64,000 bases of DNA from Perkinsus chesapeaki (Eukaryota > Perkinsozoa > Perkinsida > Perkinsidae). The stretch is from contig JAAPAO010000053.1 of the NCBI GenBank assembly GCA_013115145.1, positions 1-64,000 of the forward strand. The letters are read 5' to 3'. A program made the translations under genes and the position numbers. Shown here piece after piece: positions 2,997 through 53,619 of this stretch. The notes under the pieces are model-generated. The model was given only the letters and a program-made list of their open reading frames with translations, did no database searches and was not told the DNA's origin. Each line of letters opens with the position of its first letter. Position 1 is the stretch's first letter.

Positions 2997-3235
2997 TACC
3001 GTTGCCATGTGTGTAGCCAGTCGTCGACTAGCGTTGTCCTCAGCGGTTTTAAGTGTTGTGTTCGCTTGTGGGGGAAACCATCGACACTGCGCCCGCGCAT
3101 TTCGGCGCTGAAGCCGTCTCCGACACGATTGTGTCACCGCTGTCTCCCTCATGATTCTTCGGTTGACCCTGCTCTCACTGGCGCCGCTGCCGTGCTTCCT
3201 TTCGATTCAGTCGGTGTTAGCTTTTTTATTTAACT

Positions 3236-4936
3236 ATGGGAGCCTGCAATTCATGCTTTGAGACCTCGAGGTCGACCGTTCCTCCGCCAGCGCCTCCGCC
3301 ACAGGTCGAGACTGTCACCGATCAGAGGGCCGAGCAGTGCCCTGAAGTCGTGGTCTACGATGACACCCTCGAGCTTCCCGTTAGCCCAACGACAATGATG
3401 GCATCACAAGGGTACACCTTTACGGTGACGGAAGATACCAGCGGCCAGCCTGGCCAGGAGCAGATCTCAGCGACCGTTGTCGAGTCGAATCGCCCCTCCG
3501 AGGACGCCGTCGAAGAAATCGAAGAGGTTTCTGATGGTGATTCGGTGAAGTCCGGTGATGTTGAAATCACCAGTACCGCGGCTGAGCCCTCTATGGTGGG
3601 GACTCCTGACCAGGCCGACCGTGTCACCCCTATGAGTAACCCGATGCCCGTAGAGCTCCTTCGGACTGCGGCCGCTCTACGTGCAAGCCAGAGCGATGAA
3701 CAGCAGCAACCGCAGACGTCTCAGGCGCCTGTCCATGCTCTCACTCCCGAAGGGGCTTCCTTCGCCATGGCAGCTTGCTCTGGTATATCACTCTCGTCGA
3801 TGAACAGCGGCAAGTCTGAGGACGAATCTCCGGTGGTCCCGACGGTCGCACAGACCATCATGACCATGACTTCGGGCGTACAGCCCGGGGCAACTGGACC
3901 TGCCTACCAGGCCGCCGATGAAGCTGGTTCGATGATGCCCATTGACGCTGGTGAACTTGGCCAACTGCCTCTGGGCCTTGCTGAAGTGTCGGCGCAATTC
4001 GACATAGGGTTTGTCCAACAGGGCCCCGACGTGACTGAAGAGGACGACGCCGTCAGCACTGAAGAGGTTACCGAGGTCGTTGACGAGACCGCTGAGCTCG
4101 AGCCTAGTACTACAGGAACTCAGAGTGACCCTCTTACGGAGAAGCACTTCCCTTATATGTACGACAGGATGCCGAGCCCCCCAACAACAAGGAAGTTCCC
4201 TTACCTTTATGATACACCTCAGTTGGCGGATTCCGTTGAAGATGAAGCGGCGGGACATTGCAATTCGGCAACTAGGAGCAGTTTTGGTCCAGCAATAGAG
4301 CCTTCGGTGCCGTCAAGAAAGTTCCCTTACCTTTATGACCATCCTGAGGGTCCGTGTTCGTCTCCTGATGCTTCCACTTCGGTGACGTCAAGAAAGTTCC
4401 CTTACCTTTATGACCATCCTGTCGTATCGAGTGTTGAAGGCCCTACCAGATCATCATTATCACCAGGAGCCGAGAGGGAGTTCCCCTACCTTTACGCCCC
4501 GCGTGTGGAAGGTACTACAGCTCCAGCGCAAGGACCAGTGCAAGGTGAGGACGCCAACGAGGAACCGACAATAACTCTGTCGACCTGCACTGAAAGCAAC
4601 TTCCCTTACTTATATGATACATGCTCCAATGGAGATGTGAAGGTCCTCTGTCCAGCAGCAACGAGCGAAGGCCCTCAGAAGGAGTTTGGCTCGACGGACT
4701 CTCCGATGGAATCTCGCAGATTCCCGTACTTGTACGACAAGGCCGCCGAGAAGACCTCTGAAGAAGGCTGCGATGTTTCGAATTCCATTCATAATGAACT
4801 TAGTGATAGGAAGTTCCCTTATTTATATGATCACACCAGGAAAGGTGCTGTTGACATCCCCGCTACAAAAACCACCCAGCAGACCGCTGCTCCAGAGCAG
4901 ACCACGAGGGCCGCAAGGTCCGTGGTGCGCGAGTAG
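3236..4936 (+). CDS. FPYLYD-repeat protein with N-terminal dual-acylation signal
   Basis: One uninterrupted 566-residue frame, unusual in this intron-dense region. It starts MGACNSC: Gly2 fits N-myristoylation, and Cys4 and Cys7 fit palmitoylation, so the protein should sit on the cytoplasmic face of a membrane (inference). Residues about 15-300 are acidic and rich in Ser, Thr, Pro and Glu with no recognisable fold. From about residue 303 to the end there are eight copies of a motif with consensus [KR]-[KE]-FPYLYD, spaced about 15-55 residues apart; variants include HFPYMYD and EFPYLYA. I do not recognise the family. The region looks disordered with short linear motifs, suggesting multivalent docking. 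A short paralogue lies 264 bp downstream on the same strand. Confidence 0.85.
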   Translation: MGACNSCFETSRSTVPPPAPPPQVETVTDQRAEQCPEVVVYDDTLELPVSPTTMMASQGYTFTVTEDTSGQPGQEQISATVVESNRPSEDAVEEIEEVSDGDSVKSGDVEITSTAAEPSMVGTPDQADRVTPMSNPMPVELLRTAAALRASQSDEQQQPQTSQAPVHALTPEGASFAMAACSGISLSSMNSGKSEDESPVVPTVAQTIMTMTSGVQPGATGPAYQAADEAGSMMPIDAGELGQLPLGLAEVSAQFDIGFVQQGPDVTEEDDAVSTEEVTEVVDETAELEPSTTGTQSDPLTEKHFPYMYDRMPSPPTTRKFPYLYDTPQLADSVEDEAAGHCNSATRSSFGPAIEPSVPSRKFPYLYDHPEGPCSSPDASTSVTSRKFPYLYDHPVVSSVEGPTRSSLSPGAEREFPYLYAPRVEGTTAPAQGPVQGEDANEEPTITLSTCTESNFPYLYDTCSNGDVKVLCPAATSEGPQKEFGSTDSPMESRRFPYLYDKAAEKTSEEGCDVSNSIHNELSDRKFPYLYDHTRKGAVDIPATKTTQQTAAPEQTTRAARSVVRE

Positions 4937-16437: not shown

Positions 16438-19400
16438 ATGTCCCTTTCCACCCCAGCGGCGGCGTATCTTCATCGCAAGGGCTCAGCTGAGCTGAGACCT
16501 CTCAGAATCTTAGTGGCCAACAATGGTCTTTCAGCCACAAAGTTCATAAGAAGCACGGCCAAGGCTCAATTGCAGCCAGAAACGTAACCTTTCGGGAATC
16601 TTGCATGCGTCAAGCTTGGATATCCATCAGGTGTATTACTAGAGGAGTTGATCTATATGTCATGGAGACTCCTGATGACAGGGAGGCCGGGCTTGCGTAT
16701 AGGTCGGAGCCTAACCCCCTGCTGCCGGCAGGATGCGGTGCTAGAGTGGTCCCTGTAGAGGCCCCTGCTGGGCCTGGTGCAAATAACTACGGCAATGTCG
16801 AGGTAGAAACTTTGGGACGTAGAGAAAAATACGGTATGGCGGATTAGGTCATTCGTCGTCTCGCAATCGAGAACGAATGCGACATGATCTGGCCAGGCTG
16901 GGGCCATGCTTCTGAGAACCCAGAGCTACCCGAGGCCTTCCAAAACACCGGAATAGAGTTCATAGGACCCTCGACTGAGTAATAGCCCGCCCTACGGCCG
17001 TTCACTATCCTCCTCCAGATGCATGAGGCTCCTCGGCGATAAGGCAGAGTCCACCATAACCGCCAAGAAGTGCGGCGTTCCCTGCATCCCCTGGTCGGGA
17101 GATTACCCAGATCTCGCCACAGAGGGATTCGTAGCAGATGCTGAGGCCGCTGCTGAATGCTGTGATAGAATCGGTTATCCATGCATGATCAAGGCAGCCA
17201 TGGGCGGAGGTGGAAAAGGTAATAGCATGCCCGGTTGGGCTGAGCTTTAGTACGTAATAGGCATCCGAATGGTATCTTGCCGCGAGGAGGTCGCCGATAA
17301 GTACGATCTGGTCAGAGGGGAGATCCCAACCGGCGGTATTATGGTTATGAGATGCGTCACTAGAGCGCGACATTTTGAGGTGCAGATTCTTGCCGATAAG
17401 TACGCGCGCCAGGAAATTGCCGAGGGTCGAGCTGGGCTTTAGATACAACAATGTGGTGGCTCTGAGTACCCGAGATTGCTCCCTCCAGAGACGCCAACAG
17501 AAAATGGTCGAAGAAGGCCCGGTGGTCCATACCAGCCATGAGCGCGTTCTCGAAATGCAGAAGTGCGCTGAGAGGCTGTGTGCTGAAGTCGGGTAGGACG
17601 CCTTGGCGGTTAGGATTGTGATACGGGAGCTTGTTGCTTGAGGGCAGGTACGAGTCGGCGGGCACTGTAGAGTTTTTGTACGATATAGAGACCGATAACT
17701 ATTATTTCTTGGAAGTCAATACGAGGCTGCAAGTGGAGCATCCGGTCACTGAGCTCCTCAGCGGCGTAAATCTTCCGAGTGCGATGATCCAAGTATCTTT
17801 GGGGAAGTCGCTTTACGACATACCAGATGTCGCAGCATTTTTGGCGGATCCTGATCGTTACAGATTCAAGGATAGGCATGTTATGGCCTGCCGTATCACA
17901 GCCGAGGTAAGATACTTTTCGAGGTCGATTAGAACCCCCTGTCCCCTCAGGCTGCTGATGATGGCTTCCGTCCCACCGCTGGTGTTGTTGAGCGTGTGAA
18001 GCTATACGAGGACCAGATCAGCTACGAGGAGCTCAATGAAGATGTCTTGTAGGGCAGTTCCGTCTACTGGCTTCCCGATTTCGTTACGCCGTTTTTCAGC
18101 CTCTACTATTTTTCGATTGCCGCAGATGGCAAAAAGAAGGCTGCAATCACCCAGTACTCGGATAGCCAGTTCGGTCACATTTTCGTAGTTGGTAAGCTCG
18201 CCCGGAGGCGGCGGCCATCGTCGAGTTGATGATGAGCCCTTGCCGGCAGGTTCGGACCGTCGTGACGCTGTAAGGCGCATGGTTGAGGTGTTGAGGAATG
18301 TAGAGGTTGTTGGGGAGATCAAGTGCAGTGTCGACTATATTAGAGAGGTACGTTGGCCATGTGGAATCTTGCTGGCCCAGTGGCGCTGAACAGCCGCAGC
18401 TACTCCCGCGCGGGTACGCAATTGTCTGTAGTAGAAGCATTGAAATAGTTACGGCAAGGCGCTAATGCTGATAGTGGATTCCGACCCATTTTTGCACAGC
18501 AATATATTCGCCATGGCGATTCTGTGGGAGAAGCTAGAGGCTTGAGTGCTTAATGTTTCGATCAAGAATTATATTAGACCTGCCTGGACGAGGTCCTTTA
18601 AGGTGGATCTGTGAATATATTCGTCATAGGCTTATACTGTAGGTGATAGTATCTTACGTTCAGGTCATGCGCACGAGTGAGTTTGAGAATGACACCTACC
18701 ACACCAACTGGCTCCTGTCGCCCACTGAGGGCCAGAAGGTCATCACCAAGGCCATCGCCATGGACTCTGTGGTGAATGGCAGTCTCGTCCTGGCCAAGGT
18801 TGGCGTGGCGGCTGCTATCTGCAAGTAGCATGACCACCTGTCAGCGCTTACCGGTCACTTTCCTGTGGTTCAGGTTCCTGTATCAATCTTTACGTGCCGA
18901 GTCCCAGTTCGAGGCCAAGTTGTCTGCTGCACAATTGCCGCCTCATCTGGCCACCACAATGCACGAGGATGTCGTCCTTGGCAAATGCGGTCGTCTGCCC
19001 TACAGGCCCTGCAAGTTTTTGACCCAGGTCTCAGCCACCGGCCCGGATACCTTCTGCGTCACCCTAACGATGCCCAACGGTGAACAGATCGCTATACCCT
19101 ACTTGCACGCGGAGCCGGTGAGCGGAGATATCTACGAGTTCCGTTTGAGTGGGTGGCAGTTCAACCCCACTGGTCAGCGTGTCGTCTTCGCTCCCCACGG
19201 TGAGACATTGACGATGTACTTTGGTGAGTGTAAGAGTGAGAGCTGGGACATCGTTCGTGAGGTCGACCCTCATGAGGTCCGCTCCCAGATGGCTGGTAGT
19301 GTCCACTCCTTAAAGGTCTCGGACGGCGACCGTGTCGAGGCCGGCTCTGTGATATGCCAGGTCGAGGCCATGAAGATGTTCATGCCTATATTGATGCCCT

Positions 19401-22400
19401 TCACTGGTGTCATCAAGTTCAATGTGGCGCCAGGCAGCACTCTCAAGGTTAACGACCTTATCGCTACTCTCAGCGATTTGGAGGTAGACGACCCGGCCAA
19501 GTTGGAGGACCGCAAGCCCCAAGTTTACTCGGATGACGCAGTCCTTCACAAGAGGCGCATGCCTGTCCAGTTCGACCCCAAGGAGGTTAAGAGCGTTATG
19601 AGGGGATACGAGCTCATCGGTATGACGCCCCACGAGTTCGTGGCGCAGGTGGCCGAATACGTCCTCACCGAGGGGGAGCAACTCGATGGCAGCTACGACA
19701 CCACCGCTGCACAAGATATACTGGAGATGATGGTGAAGATCGAGGACCCTGCTGATGAGATGCTGGCCCATCTCAGTCATATGAACCCTGGGCCTTCTCG
19801 ATTGGCCCTGTCTGTGGCGAAGGCTGGGTTGGTAGATCCTAACGATATGGATCTCCTCATGGACATAGCCAGGAGCCGCAGAAACACCAGACTGCGGGTT
19901 GACATTGCCATGTGTGTGATCGCAGTGCTTTGGGAGAAGTCTGCCTGGGTTGAGCCACTTGAGAAGATGCGTAAGTGGAAGACAGCCGATATGGAGAACT
20001 TGAAGCTGGCTGCTGGAGCTTTGACTCTGAAGGCCAACGGTATCACTACGACCGACACCGTTGCCGAGCCCATCCTTACTGTTATCGATGAGGTGCCGCT
20101 CTGCCGCGTGGATAACACTGGAGCTAGCCCTAATGATCTCAGCAGCTTGAGCTCATCGGAGGGTAACTCGAGCTCTGAGGAGAGTGTTGTGGCGCCGCAG
20201 ATGGCCAGAAGCCCACTGAAACGCATGATAAGAAACGACAGTGTTCGCAGTCTGTTCGAGAGAGCTCTCGGACGACGCACCTCAGAGAAGGTGTCAACTG
20301 GTTTGAGGTTGGAGGTGGTAAAGGATCTGTGGCCAGTGGCTAAGGATAACATTGCCGATCCTTACACCTACTACTCGCAGCTCAATTTCAACCTCCAGAG
20401 CGCTACTGAAATGCGCTGGTCGGACTCAGTCGTCGGAGGGGCCCGAAAAATGGACAACCTCTTCACAGCGGAAGTTCATCTGGACGAGACCGCTGGCGAC
20501 TACGTGAAGGAGGTTGTTGCTATGTACCAGAGGATGCGCCGTGAGCTTACTATGGCCGGACCGAGTCTGGGGGATCGCAGAACCCATCTGAGAATCGACG
20601 TTGCTCCGGCTCGACTGTTGAAGGGTACCACCGATGAGGCGTGTGCTGAAGCTCTCCGTATCGGCCTTAATGAGGGCAGCCAAGTTGTGAACAAGGAAGC
20701 ACCGGTGGCCAGTGTCGCGGTTGTCTTGGGGCCACATAGGAGGTGAGCAGCAGTCGGTCAAGGTTGTCAGCAGCCAGAGTCAAGTCTATCAGGTTCTATT
20801 TCCACAACTCAGCAGTCGTGTCCGAGGCCAAGTTCGATGAGCTTGTTCTGTACCGTAACGTGCCTCCTCATAGGTGGCAGGAGCTCGAGTGGCGAAGGTT
20901 CCAGAATTACGTGGTGAAGCCTTTGCCGCTGGGACCGTGTCCGAACGCCTACTCGCCATTGTCGCCTCAAGACGTCACCGACTTCGCTTCGGTGGTGCAA
21001 GCTACTCCGAGGGAGTTCAATAAAGGTGAGCTGCTGAGGGCGCCGGTGTGACGGAAAGATTCCTCAGGCAAGTGGGCCGAGCCTATCCTCAGCGCCGGCG
21101 CGTTTGTGACCAGTAGTGGCGCTACGTCGACGCCGGTGAAGCTAATAGAGAGCGCTATGATCGCGGCTTTGGACTGTCTGATGCTAAACACAAAGGGGCC
21201 TAGGAGGACCAAACAGCAGTGCAACAGGTAACGGAAGCAGGGTCATAAAACCCCACGGGCGATGCTAGCACTCAGAATGTACTTGTCCGTCAACTGCCCC
21301 GAGTGGGATGATGGAAAGGACGCTGATGAGGACGATGATGAGATGGGCGACAACTCGGCAATTTTGGGCCGTTCCCTCAGCGAGGCTGAGAAGCTCGTGG
21401 CCGCCGCCGTCCGCGGATATTCATCGGTCCTATGGGCGTATGCCAACGATCTAGAGGTACCACGGGCTTTGCCTTCCGACCTCGAAAGGAATCTTTTACA
21501 GGTCCGCCTGTCCTTCGGTCAACACATGCCCATCAGAGTATTTGCTCGAGGCACTCCATCACAGCTCGATGTCACCACGACGGCCTACCACGAAGTCCGG
21601 CATCCCACCACAGGAGTGTTGCAGCTCAGACGCCTGCCCAATCCGGATGATGGCAGCCTAGCTGAGGCCGACGGTGTCGACGTTGATGCCCCCTTGCAGC
21701 AGCCTGAGGGTGTTACCGTCAGGAGGCACGCTGCTGAGCGATTGGATGTAGGCTTCCCGTTGGACTTGTCCATGAGTTTTCTCATATGAGAGGCGCAGCA
21801 TGTGTCGTCATCCCCGAGCGCTTTGATATATCTCCACTGGTCATTATTGATATGTCAGACCACATACGTCTACGACTTCCTAGAGCTCTTCGAGCAAGCC
21901 GTCAGAGAGGAGTGGCGTCGAAAGAAGAGCGGCCATCAGGCTCGTATCATTCTATCCGAAACCAAGCGTTTCGTTAAGGTTGAAGAGCTCAGGCTGAAGC
22001 CAGGTAAGAGTCACCCGGGGGCAGTCTGTGAAGGCGATGCTTCTTTTGTCAGGCATGGAGGACCCTCTGCGGGACAAGGACCCGGCGTCGATGCTGGACT
22101 TCATCCCCAACTCTCCCGGTACAAACAACATTGGCATGGTGGCTTGGAAGCTGACCATGAAGGTAGGTTGCGGGTCGAACCCCGGAAGCGGCTTTTTATG
22201 TATTTTTTTCAGATGCCTGAGTGGCCCGCTGGCCGTGACGTTTATGTCGTTGCCAATGACATCACCTTCATTCAAGGCTCCTTCGCTCCGCTAGAGGATG
22301 AACTCTTCTATTACGTTTCCAAGCTGGCCAGACTTTCTGGCGCGCCACGAATTTATATTGCAGGCAACTCCGGTGCCAGACTGGGCATTGCCAAGGAGGT

Positions 22401-23601
22401 TTACAGCAAGTTCAAGGTGGCCTGGCGTGAGAACTCCCCGAGCGAAGTTGACTATCTTTACCTCGACCGTAAGGACTATGAGGCCATCCCGGACTCGGTC
22501 CGCGGCGAGTGGGTCGGTGACCGATTCAAGATCACCACAATAATCGGCAAGGAGAATGGCATCGGTGTGGAGTGTCTATCGGCATCTGGCCTCATCGCTG
22601 GAGAGACCTCGCTCACCTACGACCAGAACATGACCATGACCTACGTCACCGCAAGAACCGTCGGTATTGGTGCTTATTTGGCCCGGCTGAGTCAGCGTAT
22701 CATACAGAAGAGAACGGCTCCTATTATCCTCACCGGCTTCAAGGCCCTTAACTCGGTCATCGGCAAGGAGGTCTACACCAGCAACGATGATATTGGCGGC
22801 CCACATGTAATGTTCACCAACGGCATCACTCAGACCACCGTGGACGATGATCTCTCTGGTGTGCGTGAGATGGTGAAGAGGATAGCTATGCTTCGCGAGC
22901 CGCAGGCGCCGCTAGGTAAGTTGCCCCATCCTGCTGGTCCAGAATGCATCTACGACAACAAGTCCTTTGAGGAGCAGATGGAAGGCTGGGCCCCGAGCGT
23001 GCGTGTTGGTCGCGCCACGGTGGGCGGGTCTCCCGTTGGGATTGTCATGTGTGCCACTGAGACCACCACAGCTGTTCGCCTGGCCGATCCTGCTGACCCT
23101 AACTCCAGCGAGAAGACCATCACCTATGAGCCCGGAGTGCTGTATGCTAATGGCGTCTCCAAGGTGGCACAGACGGTCAGCGATCTTATCACCGAGGACC
23201 TTCCGTTGGTAATGGTATTGAACTGCCGTAAGGTAGATAGTAGCGACGTCGAGATGAACCATAACGTGGCCCACTTGATTGAGGAGCTTGTCCGGTTCGA
23301 GAAGGCCGGTAAGCCTCTGATAGTGCTACCGGCCAAGGGCTGCCGCCTGGCCCCTGAGGTAAAGACCGTCATTGAATCAGCCTCCCCGAGTAGCTACATC
23401 TTCGATAACTCTTACGGCACGCGAGATATGTGGACATGTCTGTCCCTGACCGACAGCGAGAGCTATTCTTGGAACGAGCTTAGAGGGTGGTTGGCATGCT
23501 TCATAGGCTGTGAGGAGGAACAGTTTAATGGTGCTGTGGGGAGCAATGATGATATTGATGTTATTAAGAGGGAGTTGTTGGGATATATTAAAGAAGGGTA
23601 A
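16438..23601 (+). CDS. ACC: Acetyl-CoA carboxylase, multidomain eukaryotic type
   Basis: Makes malonyl-CoA for fatty acid synthesis. Biotin carboxylase exons (to about 17.9 kb) carry [23 protein letters not shown], the ATP-binding [24 protein letters not shown] and the catalytic [16 protein letters not shown]. After YSDSQFGH comes an intron of about 300 nt, then one long exon (about 18.8-20.75 kb) with the biotin site [11 protein letters not shown] and the central domain. The carboxyltransferase exons (about 21.8-23.6 kb) carry [63 protein letters not shown] and [13 protein letters not shown]. Stop 23599-23601. The last ~200 residues are strongly divergent and lack the usual NWRGFSGG and GGSWVV motifs. 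The start is 16438, or an in-frame ATG at 16345 that would add 31 Arg-rich residues resembling a targeting leader. Confidence 0.92.
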
Positions 23602-37349: not shown

Positions 37350-38160
37350 CTAAGTAGCAGCGCAGTTCCTGTGAATGCGAATCACACCAGGCTTCTTCGG
37401 CCCCGGGCTGCCGCAATGCCCATCATCATCTGCGCTGTGGGCACAATTTTGGCAGATTCGACCGATCTCGATCACTCTGGTGCTGCCGACTGTGAGCGAG
37501 CCTCCACACTGGGCACAGGTCTTACAGTCTTTGCATTGCCAACGATCACAGGGCAACTGAAGAAGAAAGGACTTCATAGTAGTAGTAATAGGACACAGGC
37601 CTCTAGTTTAGGAGGACTAACGCCAAGTGAAGTGTGTTTACGGTACGCAGTGCACTACAAGCCTAGCCTTCACCGCAGCGAACATGCTTAATCTTCGGAT
37701 GTGTTCTATCGTCCACACATGATAATCTACAACGTGACATTTAATGCATTCTATGACCACTTATGTCAACGGAGATACAGTACTAACAATTACATCAATT
37801 ACAAGTAAATTATTAATCAGACGGCCTTCTCCATCTCCCCTACCATGAGGGTCGACGCCTCCTCTTGGCTCATCCCAGCACACTCTGGATGGAACCTCCT
37901 ATTACAATCAGTACACACCGCCGTTGCCTCCTCATCTGCCATCGAGGAGCCACAGATCACACACGCCTGAGCCGGGACAGCTTTACAGTAACCATTTGAG
38001 ATGGGACTATTACCGAGCATTCTTGGCACTTCCAATGAGATCCTTCTGAATACCTCCTCACCAACCGGACGTCCAGCGGGGGGTCGCAGCAGAATGCATG
38101 ACAGTGGCGACCACAGGCAGTGCAGTGGAGCATGTACTGAAAAACTTGGAGTACGGAGAT
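37350..38160 (-). CDS. Multi-PHD-finger chromatin protein (3' part)
   Basis: Zinc-binding PHD fingers, which read histone tails. The first exon seen (about 38160-38030) carries LHCTACGRHCHAFCCDPPL ... HWKCQECS. A ~45-nt intron joins it to ACVICGSSMADEEATAVC, CTDCNRRFHPECAGM and GEMEKA. An intron of about 250 nt then joins to LPCDRWQCKDCKTCAQCGGS, where one finger ends and another begins (the WQCxxCKxCxxCG link typical of tandem PHD fingers). The last finger is shortened (ICQNCAHSADDDGH) and the frame stops at 37350. At least three fingers are present. The 5' part of the gene beyond 38160 is not resolved. Confidence 0.75.
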
Positions 38161-39376
38161 CGGTGAGGTGCTAGTAGAGACCCATCTGATATTAATCTTT
38201 AACTCCGAGGAAATTTTCCTGCCACGTTTTGCTGTTCCAACCTATGCCTAATGTGAATGACTTTGACGAGGACCTGCTGGCGTCGGTATCAAAGTGGTTC
38301 CATATATGAACCGATGCCGTTCTAGTTGGGAGAGACGATATGAAGGTTGCTTTGTTGGGTCGACTGTGGTGCCTTATCCTATTCCCACGGTGATAGCTTT
38401 TGTTATTGCTATTTATTATGTTCAATTCCCTCAACAAAGTCAAACCCTGTCTAAGTTGACAAACCTAAGCTCGTATGTAATAGTAAGATGTAGAAGCAAG
38501 GATGTCTACGCAAAGTCCAATGTAATTTCACCACATAACGAGCACTGGTAGCTCTACCTCCTGCTGATGTGAATGCAAACAGGTGCTCCACGCACACCGG
38601 TACGCAGGCTCGGAGGAGCTATCGGTAGGCTCCGAGGAAGGGGTCGCTGCTGAAGCATGATCAGAGGAAAAGACGGTATGAAGTTGCCGGCCTACTGCTT
38701 CGCCGGACAAGGTGCTTGTGGAGCTCCTCAGTAGGGCTCGAAGGCGTCGCTACTCTGCAAAAGGGACATTCTCGACCACATTGCCAAGTGATTACCGGCG
38801 GGCCTTGCGCCTATGTAATGATCCAAGCTTGTGTACGTCAGCTGAGGTAAGGGAACTGTCGTCGGGGGTAGACATAATAAACTGCATAATAGTGAGGATA
38901 ATATTATATACAGGGACTGCTAGGGATCCGTCCATCTTCTTGGCAGATGATCTATCTAGTGGAAAAAGCCGAATATTCTGAGCTCCTCGATGCCATACAG
39001 TCTACAATAAGCGTATAATGAGAATTATTTTCTTTATAGTGCGACGGTTGCCACTACAGTGATGTGGCTGCGGGCAGCTTAGTCTAGTGCGGGTTAAGGT
39101 AGATGTATGGTACAGCACCAGACAGATAGAGGGAAAGTATCGTACTACCAGTCACACAGAGCCGATCAAGCGAATGGTGGCCTATGCAGATTCAAGCGGG
39201 GAGGAAATACGCAGACGCTTCAGTGCAGTCCAGTAAAAGGATTAGCCCCTCAAGCTCGCAGGTAGCACAACGGCCTTGGGAAGTGAAATACGGTCCCGCA
39301 ACTCAGCTAGCAGCACCGCACCGAACATGAGCAGGTTAGATTGAGTCTTGGAAATAGAGGTAATAAGGTGATTACT
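38161..39376. other. Unresolved region upstream of the PHD gene
   Basis: Probably contains 5' exons of the PHD-finger gene on the minus strand and the 3' flank of the mitochondrial carrier gene. Short frames exist (for example 38712-38981 plus) but none has recognisable motifs. Confidence 0.35.
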
Positions 39377-40976
39377 CTACGATGAGTACTTATAGCGTAC
39401 ATGCTGACCGAATTGGTATGCATAAAGTGCTGCTCCATTGGCAATAAAGGATCGGGCCACCCCTGGCAGCAGTCCCCTATACAGCGTGATGCTCCATTGG
39501 CAATAAAGGATCGGGCCACCCCTGGCAGCAGTCCCCTATACAGCGTGATGCTCCATTGGCAATNNNNNNNNNNNNNNNNNNNNNNNNNNNNNNNNNNNNN
39601 NNNNNNNNNNNNNNNNNNNNNNNNNNNNNNNNNNNNNNNNNNNNNNNNNNNNNNNNNNNNCCCCTATACAGCGTGATGCTCCATTGGCAATAAAGGATCG
39701 GGCCACCCCTGGCAGCAGTCCCCTATACAGCGTGCTGCTCCATTGGCAATAAAGGATCGGGCCACCCCTGGCAGCAGTCCCCTATACAGCGTGCCTGAAA
39801 AGGAGGAGCGGTTTGATACTGAGGGGAAATAGACGAATGATATCGAATAACAGCGGTCATTTCAAGTGACCAATAAAGTGGAGCCGTGATGGTTTTGAAT
39901 AGCCTTGTGACCGAATCCAAGGAAACGTCCAAGGAATATAATAAGCTGGATAACATCGATACTTAAGGGCAACCAGAAGCGGGGCGAAGAAGTCCATTAC
40001 GAGGACCAGTCTCCGAAGAACACTATAAGAGCATGTACTTAACGAATTTACCGATGTCACTGAATATAGGCAATTGAGTTGAACTAATTCAGACAAGCAA
40101 AGCCCGAGCCTTTCACTTGGGGCCCATACCTCCAATATTACCATTCCTAGCACACTGCCACAGTAACGTCGCCATTCCTGCGGTTTGCCGGTGTCCCGCT
40201 TGAATCTGTGACTTCACCACATCCAATGGCCACACTATACACCATGCCAACGTAGCGGCAATGCCTCCCTTGAGGAACGGATGGGCCCCGAAGAACTCTG
40301 GACTCTTAGCTTGGAAAGCCTCAGCTATGACAAAAAAGTTCCCCAACAGAAGTACGTTACGCGCCGTAGTGGCCGAGAACCCTAACGTGAGCTCACGAGC
40401 GCTGTAGGAGGAACCAAGCTGCCGTCGGGTCTTCATCAACTCCAAAGGAGCCTCTACGACAGCCCGGGACAGGCCAGAGGCGAGCCCACCGACCAACACC
40501 CGAGGCTCCAGGAATCCCCCCAGCTTGGTGTGCTCGAACCAAGTATCCTTGAGGCTGGCGAATACCACACCGTAGGATGCAAATTGCAATGACCGAAACA
40601 TCAGACTGCCGATGAATGGTGGAAGGAAGCCTCTGTAGAGGCCATGGACGCCATGGTCCAGAATAGTGGTGCGGAAAGTCCTGAGCATACCGGCGCTCTG
40701 GAACTGAGGCTGGGCTTGCATTTTAGTTTTAATGGTGTCCAGCGGATGCCCCATTATAACACTAGTACCTCCGTAGAGCACTCCACAGCCCAGAGACCAC
40801 ATACCTTCTCGGAAGGCTGATCCAGAGCCTACTAGTCGCCCAACCTCGGACATTTGAAAAGCAGACCGAATAGACGACTGGGAGCTGCTTATTGCTCCAC
40901 CGAAAAAGGATGTAGCATTACCGCTTAGATTGATAAGGGCGAGATTCCAAAGCACCTTTGTATATTCTATATTCAT
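39377..40976 (-). CDS. Mitochondrial carrier family protein with expanded terminal exon
   Basis: Inner-membrane solute carrier with three ~100-residue repeats. The long exon shows GHPLDTIKTKMQ, GLYRGFLPPFIGSLMFRSLQF, EAPLELMKTRRQ and VWPLDVVKSQIQ, the three signature PxD/ExxK motifs. The exon ends NGNIGG near 40125. After an intron of about 320 nt, an acceptor (TTTTCAG near 39800) joins LYRGLLPGVARSFIANGA, the expected end of the third repeat. The true C-terminus (ANGAALYAYQFGQHVRYKYSS, split here as ANGAALYAY and QFGQHVRYKYSS) comes only after the last unit of a 59-bp tandem array, stop 39377-39379. The start is ATG 40976 or 40853. Transport substrate unknown. Confidence 0.82.
39431..39794. 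repeat. 59-bp tandem array derived from the carrier's last exon
   Basis: Units beginning TGCTCCATTGGC start at 39431, 39490, 39549, 39677 and 39736, exactly 59 bp apart on each side of an assembly gap. On the minus strand each unit encodes LYRGLLPGVARSFIANGA of the carrier. Because 59 is not a multiple of three, each unit shifts the frame; the third consecutive unit would meet a TAG. The outer units have GCTGCTCC where the inner ones have GATGCTCC. Confidence 0.93.
39564..39660. other. Assembly gap (97 N)
   Basis: A run of N inside the 59-bp tandem array. The unit phase does not carry across it, so the gap length is only an estimate and the true copy number is unknown. Confidence 1.
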
Positions 40977-41548
40977 AGGAGTCCACAACCACCCTTCTGC
41001 CACAAAGGCATTCACTACTACTTTAAACTCAGGGACTTAAGAGAATCAGAGAAGCATTAGTAAATGATAAGGTATTCACTTTTGTTGTTGTATTAAGTGA
41101 CTCTAAACAGAGGTATATTACTATGGCTTTTTAAACGGCCAGAACCGCTCCAGCTCTTTACATGTACTTTAACAAGAAGAATAACTGATAGGAACAGTGT
41201 GCATCTGGGAATAGAGCTACTCGTTATTATTACCATCATAGCTGCAGGTTGGCCAGTGAAACAGAATGTTATCCAGAAAAGGCAGTTGCCGAAATTCGGC
41301 CTGTCCTTGATGAACTTCTTCTCAGTTAGGGACATGAGAGGGACCTGCATAATATCCATTAGTCAGAGTCGCTACCACTACTACAAATACTATTATTATT
41401 CACTACTTAGTAAGCCCGAAATTGAACACTATTAACTAGCCTCAGGAGCTATGAATATCTATGTACGGAGGTATGTGCAAGGGTTTCACAGCGAACAACA
41501 GTTGAATAGTCCAAGCTTTTTGATTATACGTGAAAACCCATAACAGTG

Positions 41549-50167: not shown

Positions 50168-51379
50168 CTAAACACCACCACAGCAAACAGAAACAACTTT
50201 ACACAACCATGTGTCGACGTTTGCAACCCGCGTACGGGTAACTTCTCCCCCATAGGGATCACAGCCAAGCACCTCAACGTCCTCTGGGCTGCCCACGGCC
50301 ACAACGCCAGTAGAACCGTCAACGTCTAGGAAGTGTTTGATGGATTCTACGAGCTTTTCACTTCTAGTCAACCGAAGCCCGAAAGGCGGGTTGGTTATCA
50401 GAGCTACTGGAGAGCCACTGTAAAGCTGCGAGAGCTTTACCCAATCAAACGCTTGCAAAGGGACGCTGCTGATATCGCAAAGTCTAATTAGTGGATCCAA
50501 GTTGGAAGCGGCAACTTGTATCATTCGTGGGTCCTTGTCAAATCCAGCGATGAACTCGTGATGATGTGGCGAGATTTTAGAGTCTTCCTGTTCTATTGTG
50601 TGCCGCCATTCCTCCTCGTCAAAGCCAGTTCCCACAGTGCAGCTTGAGAACGCCTCTGATGCCTGCCGAAGGTGACGCTGCTCGAAGTGGCGATAGTAAG
50701 AGTTGAAGTACTGTGCTGGCACGTTGCAGCGTCGCATCAGATATTCCAGAATAATGGTGCCGCTGCCACAGAAGGGATCGATCACCGGAACTTGGCCAGC
50801 AGCTTCGTCGGGGACCATCGATACCATGGCGGCAGCTAATGTCTCGTTCATTGGAGCTACGCCTTGCTTCTTGCGCAGCCCTCTGATGTGGAGACTGGTG
50901 TGACCATCACCGGCGTAAACCCGGAAGGTATGGTCCTTCTCGGCGACCAACAGCAAGCGGACCTGGTAGTCGTCCCACGCGAATGTAGCGCCATACCGAT
51001 CAGCTAGGAAGGTCTTCCAGCGTGCCAGCAGAGCTTCACTCAAGTCATCAACTCTGGCAGGATTTCGAATGAAGGCGGCGACCGTGTTCCTTGCCAGCGC
51101 CTTGGGATAGTCTACTTGTGTCAGAAACGAAAACAACCTGTCTTCGCTCATAGATGTATGATTGACATCAAGGTTGCCGATCTCGCGCCACAGGTGTGTG
51201 ACGAATCGCGAAGTGTAATGAAGTCGATAGACGTCGGTCGGCAGGAGAGGCCCGGAGACAGAAACAGCGCAGGGGAAAGGCCTCTCTGTGATAACCGACC
51301 TGGACTGCCCTAGAATCATACGGACCTCCCTCTCGAGGATGGATTCAAGACCAGAAATGCACCGCAACAATAAACGCAT
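50168..51379 (-). CDS. RlmL/THUMP-type RNA methyltransferase
   Basis: S-adenosylmethionine-dependent methyltransferase of the UPF0020/RlmL family, which makes N2-methylguanosine in rRNA or tRNA. A single exon of 403 residues runs from ATG 51379 (MRLLLRCISGLESILEREV). The N-terminal half resembles the THUMP-like region; GLRKKQGVAPMNETLAAAM precedes motif I, VIDPFCGSGTIILEYL; an acidic FIAGFDKDPRMIQVA follows (ribose-binding acidic residue), and motif IV is ITNPPFGLRL. The stop is at 50168-50170. The same frame stays open upstream of the ATG into the last exons of the neighbouring MFS gene, which is probably coincidental. Confidence 0.82.
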   Translation of the reverse strand: MRLLLRCISGLESILEREVRMILGQSRSVITERPFPCAVSVSGPLLPTDVYRLHYTSRFVTHLWREIGNLDVNHTSMSEDRLFSFLTQVDYPKALARNTVAAFIRNPARVDDLSEALLARWKTFLADRYGATFAWDDYQVRLLLVAEKDHTFRVYAGDGHTSLHIRGLRKKQGVAPMNETLAAAMVSMVPDEAAGQVPVIDPFCGSGTIILEYLMRRCNVPAQYFNSYYRHFEQRHLRQASEAFSSCTVGTGFDEEEWRHTIEQEDSKISPHHHEFIAGFDKDPRMIQVAASNLDPLIRLCDISSVPLQAFDWVKLSQLYSGSPVALITNPPFGLRLTRSEKLVESIKHFLDVDGSTGVVAVGSPEDVEVLGCDPYGGEVTRTRVANVDTWLCKVVSVCCGGV

Positions 51380-51642
51380 ACCGTAAACTGCAGACACCCG
51401 ATTAACAAAATGAACACAACAAAGGTAGAAGTGATGAACATCACCTGTTGTAAATATAGTATCACCGAACCGCCGATGAAGTGGCTGGACAACAAGAGCA
51501 AAGCACAAATGGAAGCAAGCAATGTCGTCACTTCTGAGTGTAACAATGGGGCTCAGCGAGACTATGAGGAGTGGCTTGGAAAACATCGTTTTCGAGATCC
51601 TGGGGAGGGATTTCTCGCGCGCCACGAAACTAAGGACATCAT

Positions 51643-53619
51643 CTACCTGGCTTTGTATCCGATCCACTCTAGTCTCGGTTTCCTTCGAGAGTTTGCCATG
51701 GTACGTGTGATGGAAGAAGTTGAGCGAGAAAACGCAAAGTAGACCTGATGGCACCGAACTGTAGCCATGGAAAAGGGTCATCTTACCGCAGCAGTGGACA
51801 AGTCCAGTGACGATGAAGTTGAATCGATAACCCCAATGGTCAACCAGTAGGCCACCGATAGCTGCTGAACCCGACCATGAGAACATACGAACCTAGAGGA
51901 GCATACGACAGATTGAAAAGACGATTTGAAATGGAAAATAGGAAACTGGCAACTATTCAATTGATGGTTAAATTGTTGATTTTTGATCGAAACGAGATGG
52001 TATGGGAGTGTTACTAAAAAGTATTGTATTTCGAGCTTTAGATATGTTCTTAAACGTTCAAGAATGTACGATGCGACTGCCTCCTTACCATATCAACTGC
52101 ATTAACTTTTCCCCTGTCCTTTCTCGGCGTGTGGTCCATAAGCATTGCTCGAAATACTGGGCGAGAACAATTCATAAATGCCATTCGGATAACGTACAAT
52201 ACAAGAAGAATTTGTATAGGTCTCACCACCACCTGAAGACACTCTACGCCCCAGTGCATTCGATGCCGTTCGCTTACCATAGCCCATAGCAGCGAAACTG
52301 CAATGAGTCGAATGGTCACAACCACTTTCACGGTGCCGAAGCGCGTGGCAAGCTCATTGGTAACGGTGTAGGTCATAAACGCTACTGTTCTGAAAAGGGC
52401 GAAATCCCATACGTTGTAATGAGGAGGCGGCTTCCTACAGTGTCGTCACCACATTGAGGATGGCCAGCGTCCGAGGATCGACACCGTAGTCGTTCTTGAA
52501 CCAAAGCTGGAAGTACTGGACAGACATGCCGGAGCCCAGCGCTGTAATGACGTCCTGGCCGAGAATGGCACAGACGATGCAAATCGAATTGGTGTAGGAG
52601 CGGATCATCTGCAAACAAGCCGCATGGCTGTGACGTGACGCGACGTTGGCGAACCTTCTTCTTGTGCGTGAAGGGTATTGTGATCTCCACCAGCTCATTC
52701 GGGTTGTCCTCGCAAACAGCTTTGGTCGCCACGGCAGCGGTGCCCTTATTCCCCTCATCACGGAAGAACATATCCGCCACCATGCCAAATATCGCACACG
52801 ATGAGCCGAAAAGGAGAACCTAAGAGAACACCTACACGTCCCATCAGCTGCATACTCTCTGGCACTTCTGAGTGTCTTGGATTTTCGAGAATGTTAACGT
52901 AAGCACAATTTTCTATAACCGAGCTCTCACCTTTTTCAGGCATGGCAGTGTCCATGTGTTTCCCGCGACCGACAGAATTATAGCGTTCAAAATTGGACCG
53001 CTGGCAGTCGCCAACTGGGCAAGCGTCCACCTGAGGAGACCTTAGATAGCAGCCAAGACGATAGCAGCACCAACCTCAGGGACTCGAGAGGCGCTCGGTT
53101 GCCAGTCGACATACCATCAGCGATAAGAGTGCTCAACGTGGTTTCAGAGAAGGCCGTGAAGGTGCCCCAAAGAACGTATGATGGATAGGCGATCCACAGC
53201 TTATCAGTGAGAAACAACGCAAAGTTCATACCGATATTGAAGATACCCAGGAAGCCTAAGGCCCGCATCAAAGCTGGCTTAGAGATGTTGTCGGCCACTA
53301 TACCGGCGATTGGGGCACACGCCAAACAAGTAAGACCCTGCACGGAGGAGAACACACCGACCATAGTGTTAGAGCCTCCCGTGATCGTATAGAGGTAACC
53401 CAGCATAGGGATGCCCGTCCAGATGGATTGACTGAACTTGATGAGGAACGTGACCAGAAAGCCAAGCTTGACATTGTAGGATGCGCCGAGGAAGCTCCGC
53501 CAAAGGAACACTATCGGCTTGGTCTCCTTCTTCGCTCTGCCGCTCCTGCTCCTCGATAGATGATTAGCCCGGTTGGTGGTGGGCAGGAGGCTCTCTCTGA
53601 GGTTGCGACGATCAGGCAT
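51643..53619 (-). CDS. MFS transporter (multi-exon)
   Basis: ATG 53619 opens MPDRRNLRESLLPTTNRA, then a long exon of membrane helices: FSQSIWTGIPMLGYLYTITG, VFSSVQGLTCLACAPIAGIV, LGFLGIFNIGMNFALFLTD and FSETTLSTLIADGMSTGNRA. Later exons give WTLAQLATASGPILNAII, a cytosolic loop (GNKGTAAVATKAVCEDNPNE), MIRSYTNSICIVCAILGQD, MLMDHTPRKDRGKVNAVD (the MFS loop between helices) and SGSAAIGGLLVDHWGYRFNF. The 3' end is uncertain: one reading stops at 51643, while another frame continues into the methyltransferase gene. The transported substrate is unknown. It is not closely similar to the MFS gene at the left end. Confidence 0.75.

Follow-up and report, generated by a model that had tools for sequence, protein, structure and literature searches.

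Tandem repeats with units of 10–100 bp occur inside coding exons as minisatellites, or variable-number tandem repeats (VNTRs), and those that are kept usually have units divisible by three. Phase-variable contingency loci are built on out-of-frame repeats. Tandem duplication is also a described route to new introns: in fission yeast (SPOG_01682/SOCG_00815), exonic tandem repeats whose units carry AGGC turned into introns, as reported in PMC3629103, and in potato a tandem duplication gave an intron in RdRp, as reported in PMC4974935, where the model of intron gain by duplication requires AGGT in the unit. Here we describe a 59-bp tandem array in the last exon of a mitochondrial carrier gene of Perkinsus chesapeaki, found in the first 64,000 nucleotides of contig JAAPAO010000053.1 (assembly GCA_013115145.1), a stretch referred to below as the window. 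The array is most likely a recently expanded coding minisatellite that, as assembled, represents a loss-of-function allele, a reading to which we give a probability of roughly three in four.

Each of the described systems shares something with this locus. Like the coding VNTRs, the array consists of near-identical tandem units of 10–100 bp within an exon and appears to have expanded recently, which makes it a minisatellite; unlike them, it breaks the frame, its unit not being divisible by three. A unit of such length inside a coding region is also found in the contingency loci, but this array cannot toggle stepwise, since a stop codon lies in unit 3 for any copy number (n) of three or more. 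As in fission yeast there are several repeat units, but the carrier unit has neither AGGT nor AGGC, and splicing of the array is hypothetical; intron gain of this kind involves a proto-splice site AG/GT (or AG/GC) in the unit and a peptide unaltered after splicing, neither of which was found. The host gene belongs to the SLC25 mitochondrial carrier family and passes the Pfam Mito_carr cut-off, but the predicted product of the assembled allele ends inside helix 6. In the literature on Perkinsus, intron gain and coding minisatellites, judged by titles and the openings of abstracts, no description of the array was recognised.

The array and its host gene

The carrier gene lies on the minus strand and consists of an upstream exon and a last exon that holds the array (Table 1). 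The upstream exon is recognised by Pfam (Mito_carr, 4.1e-30), and the 307-aa open reading frame (ORF) of the carrier reaches 103.8 bits against a cut-off of 22.3. Relatives of the carrier bear SLC25A20/29-like or BAC2-like names in their sources, and a search of solved structures with P0001, the protein model of Perkinsus olseni, returned uncoupling proteins and ADP/ATP carriers, the best carrier stretches of which fell in the first half of the query and were not used for helix 6. When the upstream exon, one unit and the tail are joined, this one-unit product is 77% identical to the P. olseni protein over 274 aligned positions, and the exon junction (..ARNG/TLYRGLLPG..) matches CARDGTLYRGLLPG of that species (NG/TLYRG vs DGTLYRG). 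P0001 holds one unit, and no extra copy was present in 13 other relatives, picked from the 120 listed of 241 matches. A neighbouring MFS-type gene, also on the minus strand, has seven introns of 42–196 nt, their positions taken from protein alignment and GT-AG. At 347 nt the carrier intron is long, yet inside the range of 39–1622 bp given in PMC3101222, which describes canonical GT/AG introns, most of them shorter than 100 bp, in agreement with those of the MFS-type gene.

The P. olseni model also joins the carrier to a PHD finger. Weak matches to the PHD part (E 0.005 to 0.047) lie 3' of the carrier on the minus strand, past a stop codon, at 37365–37541, 37880–37969 and 38555–38716. In both species, then, the carrier may be followed by a PHD gene, the P. 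olseni fusion being perhaps an error of the gene model.

The array runs from 39794 to 39431 on the minus strand and begins at the first base of the last exon, right after a good 3' splice site. Tandem Repeats Finder (TRF) gives a period of 59 bp on both sides of an internal assembly gap (39427–39563 and 39661–39794; 98% match, scores 267 and 261). Four full units can be read. Units 1 and 2 are identical, as are units n−1 and n, and the sole difference between the two pairs is at base 1, where units 1 and 2 have G and the later visible units have T, including unit 3, of which 16 bases are visible. Differences at 1 of 59 positions point to a recent expansion. Each unit encodes TLYRGLLPGVARSFIANGA in one frame, and the genuine C-terminus, ALYAYQFGQHVRYKYSS followed by a stop, is found only 3' of the last unit. 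Since unit 2 has G and unit n−1 has T, n−1 is at least 3, and the copy number, from the order G, G, T...T, T, is at least 4, assuming that both sides of the gap belong to one haplotype; with the gap inside the array, this is a lower bound.

Because 59 is not divisible by three, the reading frame moves at each unit. Read from the acceptor, unit 1 gives TLYRGLLPGVARSFIANGA, and unit 2, in the shifted frame, gives ARCIGDCCQGWPDPLLPMEHH, the end of which reaches into unit 3, where AV and a TAG follow. The acceptor, the start of the array and this TAG are contiguous, with no N between them, and the TAG precedes the gap in the reading direction, so the predicted truncation is independent of the missing bases. 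Among model arrays of n=1 to n=7, only n=1 reaches the true C-terminus in frame. With n=2 translation continues in a wrong frame, giving 81 residues when the count starts at the last complete codon upstream of the splice. Arrays of n=3 to n=7 all yield one identical truncated product that stops in unit 3 and carries a 22-residue new tail; as unit 3 comes first, larger arrays must stop there too. The lost part is, by the family layout of SLC25, presumably the second half of transmembrane helix 6, with five of six helices staying. It includes the Q of the YQFGQ stretch, which is invariant when the one-unit product, P0001 and 13 others from the list of relatives are aligned (15 sequences). A complete third repeat with helix 6 is absent from the conceptual product of the assembled allele and is obtained only if one unit is read.

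A preliminary description of this DNA had reported a 59-bp array in a coding exon of a carrier with the same peptide in every unit, a frame that shifts at each unit with a TAG in the third, and a genuine C-terminus after the last unit only, all of which agrees with the results above. Its interpretation is supported in part: it had named truncation of the protein as one of three outcomes, and this is the outcome that the models favour.

The assembled locus appears to be single. In a genome of 35.4 Mb in 884 contigs, where the window lies within a contig of 100,716 bases, the array, the DNA of intron and exon, and the protein each match this one place (best candidates scored; a weaker copy could be missed). 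For the carrier protein, 11 candidates were scored and five matches listed, all of them this gene, and the Mito_carr family search listed 93 stretches, two of which are in this gene. The genome has other carriers, and no near copy of this one was seen. The repeat unit had no match in a plasmid collection, P0001 had no relative among viral contigs, and Rfam and tRNA scans of the window gave nothing.

Origin of the array and fate of the allele

How did the array arise? GCAC stands at the start of the exon and again directly after the last unit, so duplication via this 4-base repeat would be the simplest start. A 59-bp piece of the last exon, bounded by the short repeated GCAC (or CAC), would have been duplicated in tandem, and slippage or unequal exchange, we infer, then raised the number of near-identical units to four or more. 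Given normal splicing and translation, unit 1 would be read in the right frame and unit 2 in the wrong one, and translation would stop in unit 3. The predicted protein would keep five of its six membrane helices and presumably lose the latter half of helix 6, including its conserved Q. The assembled allele would then be a recent loss of function. It is perhaps one of several haplotypes, and an intact one-unit allele may coexist with it, if the species carries several genome copies; the title of a draft-genome paper on P. olseni and P. chesapeaki, as it stands in the reference list of PMC9550989, includes polyploidy. Nothing here needs a new mechanism.

The inner T variant would read as Ser (GCA TCA), as at the corresponding position of the P. 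olseni protein, and the G variant as Ala, as at the carrier's own last junction. Going by the P. olseni protein, not its DNA, T may perhaps be the older state of the flank. Secondary structure was considered as a cause of expansion and rejected, since neither strand of the unit DNA folds better than its shuffled versions (z 1.38 and 1.81). As a means of locating further exonic arrays, codon usage was of no help: a score trained on the window failed to distinguish coding sequence from background.

Some observations weigh against this explanation of the array. No damage is seen in the upstream exon or in the 17 residues that follow the array, which is how a gene still in use would look too. The truncated product keeps a good Mito_carr score (111.1 bits vs 116.0 for the one-unit product); the Pfam score is thus no proof of lost function, which is deduced from structure. 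The copy number across the gap is only bounded, at four or more. Finally, two inexact splice paths, shortening the protein by 5 and 9 residues, use sites of ordinary strength.

Table 1. Features of the carrier gene and its array, in reading order on the minus strand (positions in the window; a slash marks a splice junction).
Feature	Position	Strand	Basis
Upstream coding exon, likely ATG (MSEVGRLVG...) at 40853, last base before donor 40142, open throughout	40142..40853	-	open frame 40113-41036
Intron, 347 nt, donor ATG/GTAATA, acceptor CTCCTTTTCAG/GC, phase 1	39795..40141	-	predicted from protein alignment and GT-AG
Unit 1 (G variant), first bases of last exon	39736..39794	-	array sequence
Unit 2 (G variant), same as unit 1	39677..39735	-	array sequence
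Unit 3, start (T variant), in-frame TAG at 39666-39664	39661..39676	-	array sequence
Assembly gap, 97 N, inside array; not true length	39564..39660		N run
Unit n−2, end	39549..39563	-	array sequence
Unit n−1 (T variant)	39490..39548	-	array sequence
Unit n (T variant), same as unit n−1	39431..39489	-	array sequence
Genuine C-terminus ALYAYQFGQHVRYKYSS and TAG stop, in frame with last unit only	39377..39430	-	aligned with SLYAYQFGQRLRSRFSS of P. olseni

Could splicing rescue the carrier?

The alternative that survives best, although we consider it improbable, is a nascent intron: the array would be partly or wholly spliced out, leaving a near-normal carrier, as an intermediate of intron gain by tandem duplication. 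Every unit contains both a GT and an AG, and the fission yeast and potato cases provide precedents. The enumeration of splice paths covered at most one extra GT-AG intron of at least 39 nt in the array, or one alternative acceptor; non GT-AG introns were covered only as AGGC and AGGA motifs. Splice weights came from eight introns, seven of the neighbouring MFS-type gene and the carrier's own; a ninth (i8) was dropped because its junction string was not found. As protein alignment and GT-AG served to position the eight introns, the GT and AG at their ends do not count as independent evidence.

The true C-terminus is reached in frame by 19 paths for n=4 and by 20 for n=5 and n=6, including changes of minus 2, plus 3, minus 5 and minus 9 residues. 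None of them (0/19 and 0/20) leaves the protein unaltered or of the same length. Neither the unit nor its junctions contain AGGT, AGGC or AGGA, which rules out removal of a whole number of units by an intron whose GT, GC or GA donor follows AG. The proposal of the preliminary description that splicing picks a single unit is rejected in its exact form, since no path in the enumeration restores the exact protein; inexact splicing keeps a low probability.

The two donors within the array, at −1.4 and −0.3, fall short of the lowest leave-one-out score among the eight real donors (2.8), and the plus 3 path relies on a GAG acceptor (−5.6). The minus 9 path, on the other hand, joins the real donor (9.4 bits; 6.9 when left out of training) to the CTGCTGCCAG acceptor in the last unit (5.2 bits), and the minus 5 path combines the same acceptor with a second donor 12 nt further on (5.3 bits), all within the leave-one-out ranges of real sites (acceptors 3.2–10.1 bits, donors 2.8–9.4 bits). 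However, both paths delete the TLYRGLLP stretch with its YRG signature, and both would have to bypass the true acceptor, which is stronger (9.3 leave-one-out), as well as the same CCAG in each preceding unit. With a training set as small as eight introns, these results lower the probability of splicing without taking it to zero. Slightly less probable again is an intron caught at birth, in which the spliceosome would remove most of the array via sites in the repeat and leave a carrier that is off by a few residues. If true, an exonic minisatellite would have given rise to an intron by expanding, with no ready-made AGGT to start from, and copies could grow freely because the excess would be spliced out.

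The assembly gap and the remaining alternatives

One or two real units might also have been multiplied by the assembler. This is a draft assembly with a gap within the array, and the three short gaps in the sample described below are of 97, 98 and 100 N. Across the gap, the spacing of units (39553 to 39681) is 128, or 2x59+10, which is out of register; not being a multiple of 59, it indicates that the 97 N are no measure of true length. Gaps were surveyed in 20 stretches of 10 kb, each from another of the 884 contigs, which together with the window make 264 kb (12,150 N). Five gaps were found (97, 98, 100, 3,149 and 8,706 N), at L013:3646, L014:997, L015:118 and L018:2911 in the sampled stretches and at 39564 in the window. 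Each of the five has a tandem array no more than 5 bases away at one or both of its edges (8 of 10 edges overall), and these arrays are minisatellites with periods of 33–59 bp; the one in L015 starts at the boundary of the sampled stretch, so its full length may be greater. Of the sequenced bases in the sample, 1.02% belong to tandem arrays with a period of at least 15. With this coverage and all five gaps at minisatellites, it follows that minisatellite arrays recur in the sample and are poorly resolved by the assembly, and a gap length close to 100 N seems to be a default value, not a measured one. An artefact nevertheless seems unlikely. More than two units stand without N on each side of the gap, joined to different unique flanks, the order of the G and T variants needs at least four units (one haplotype assumed), and a single 59-bp unit would be no obstacle to assembly, as a long array would.

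We give still less weight to the idea that selection has favoured the truncated carrier, new tail included, as the product of the gene. Such a product would be stable to changes in copy number, being the same for n=3 to 7, and it retains most of the Mito_carr score; but the genuine C-terminus 3' of the array is still intact and recognisable, and the truncated form is without the Q that is invariant in the 15-row alignment. Least credible is the copy-number switch proposed in the preliminary description, in which gain and loss of units would turn the gene off and on as in phase-variable contingency genes, for although the unit length is not a multiple of three and the near-identical units suggest a recent change in copy number, translation of n=1 to 7 rejects a stepwise toggle, with n=1 alone intact, n=2 shifted and further steps without effect, reversal would be the loss of the whole array with nothing left to re-expand, and any n=1 alleles that may exist would be a polymorphism, not a stepwise switch.

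Neighbouring genes

Elsewhere in the window, an RNA-methylase-type ORF (50168–51376, minus strand) is 62–64% identical to P. olseni and 63% to Perkinsus marinus. The MFS-type transporter gene (51605–53619, minus strand) has only two matches at E<=1e-20, in P. marinus and P. olseni. Its seven short introns all have a CAG or TAG 3' end, and that at 52277–52233 (45 nt) keeps the frame open. The first exon of this gene (53089–53619, minus strand) shows 82–84% identity, so that divergence is uneven between it and the RNA-methylase-type ORF. On the plus strand, a 571-aa ORF at 3221–4936 has a recurring FPYLYD motif, and long ORFs at 18776–23601 resemble, by eye, parts of a putative acetyl-CoA carboxylase.

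Implications

What raises the array above the trivial is that the carrier gene is otherwise undamaged. If the array is spliced after all, it would be a case of intron gain in progress. If, on the other hand, the allele is truncated, it would be a clear instance of a conserved gene broken by a coding minisatellite in this lineage of oyster and clam parasites. It would also caution that breaks of this kind can lie hidden under gaps of roughly 100 N in draft Perkinsus assemblies.
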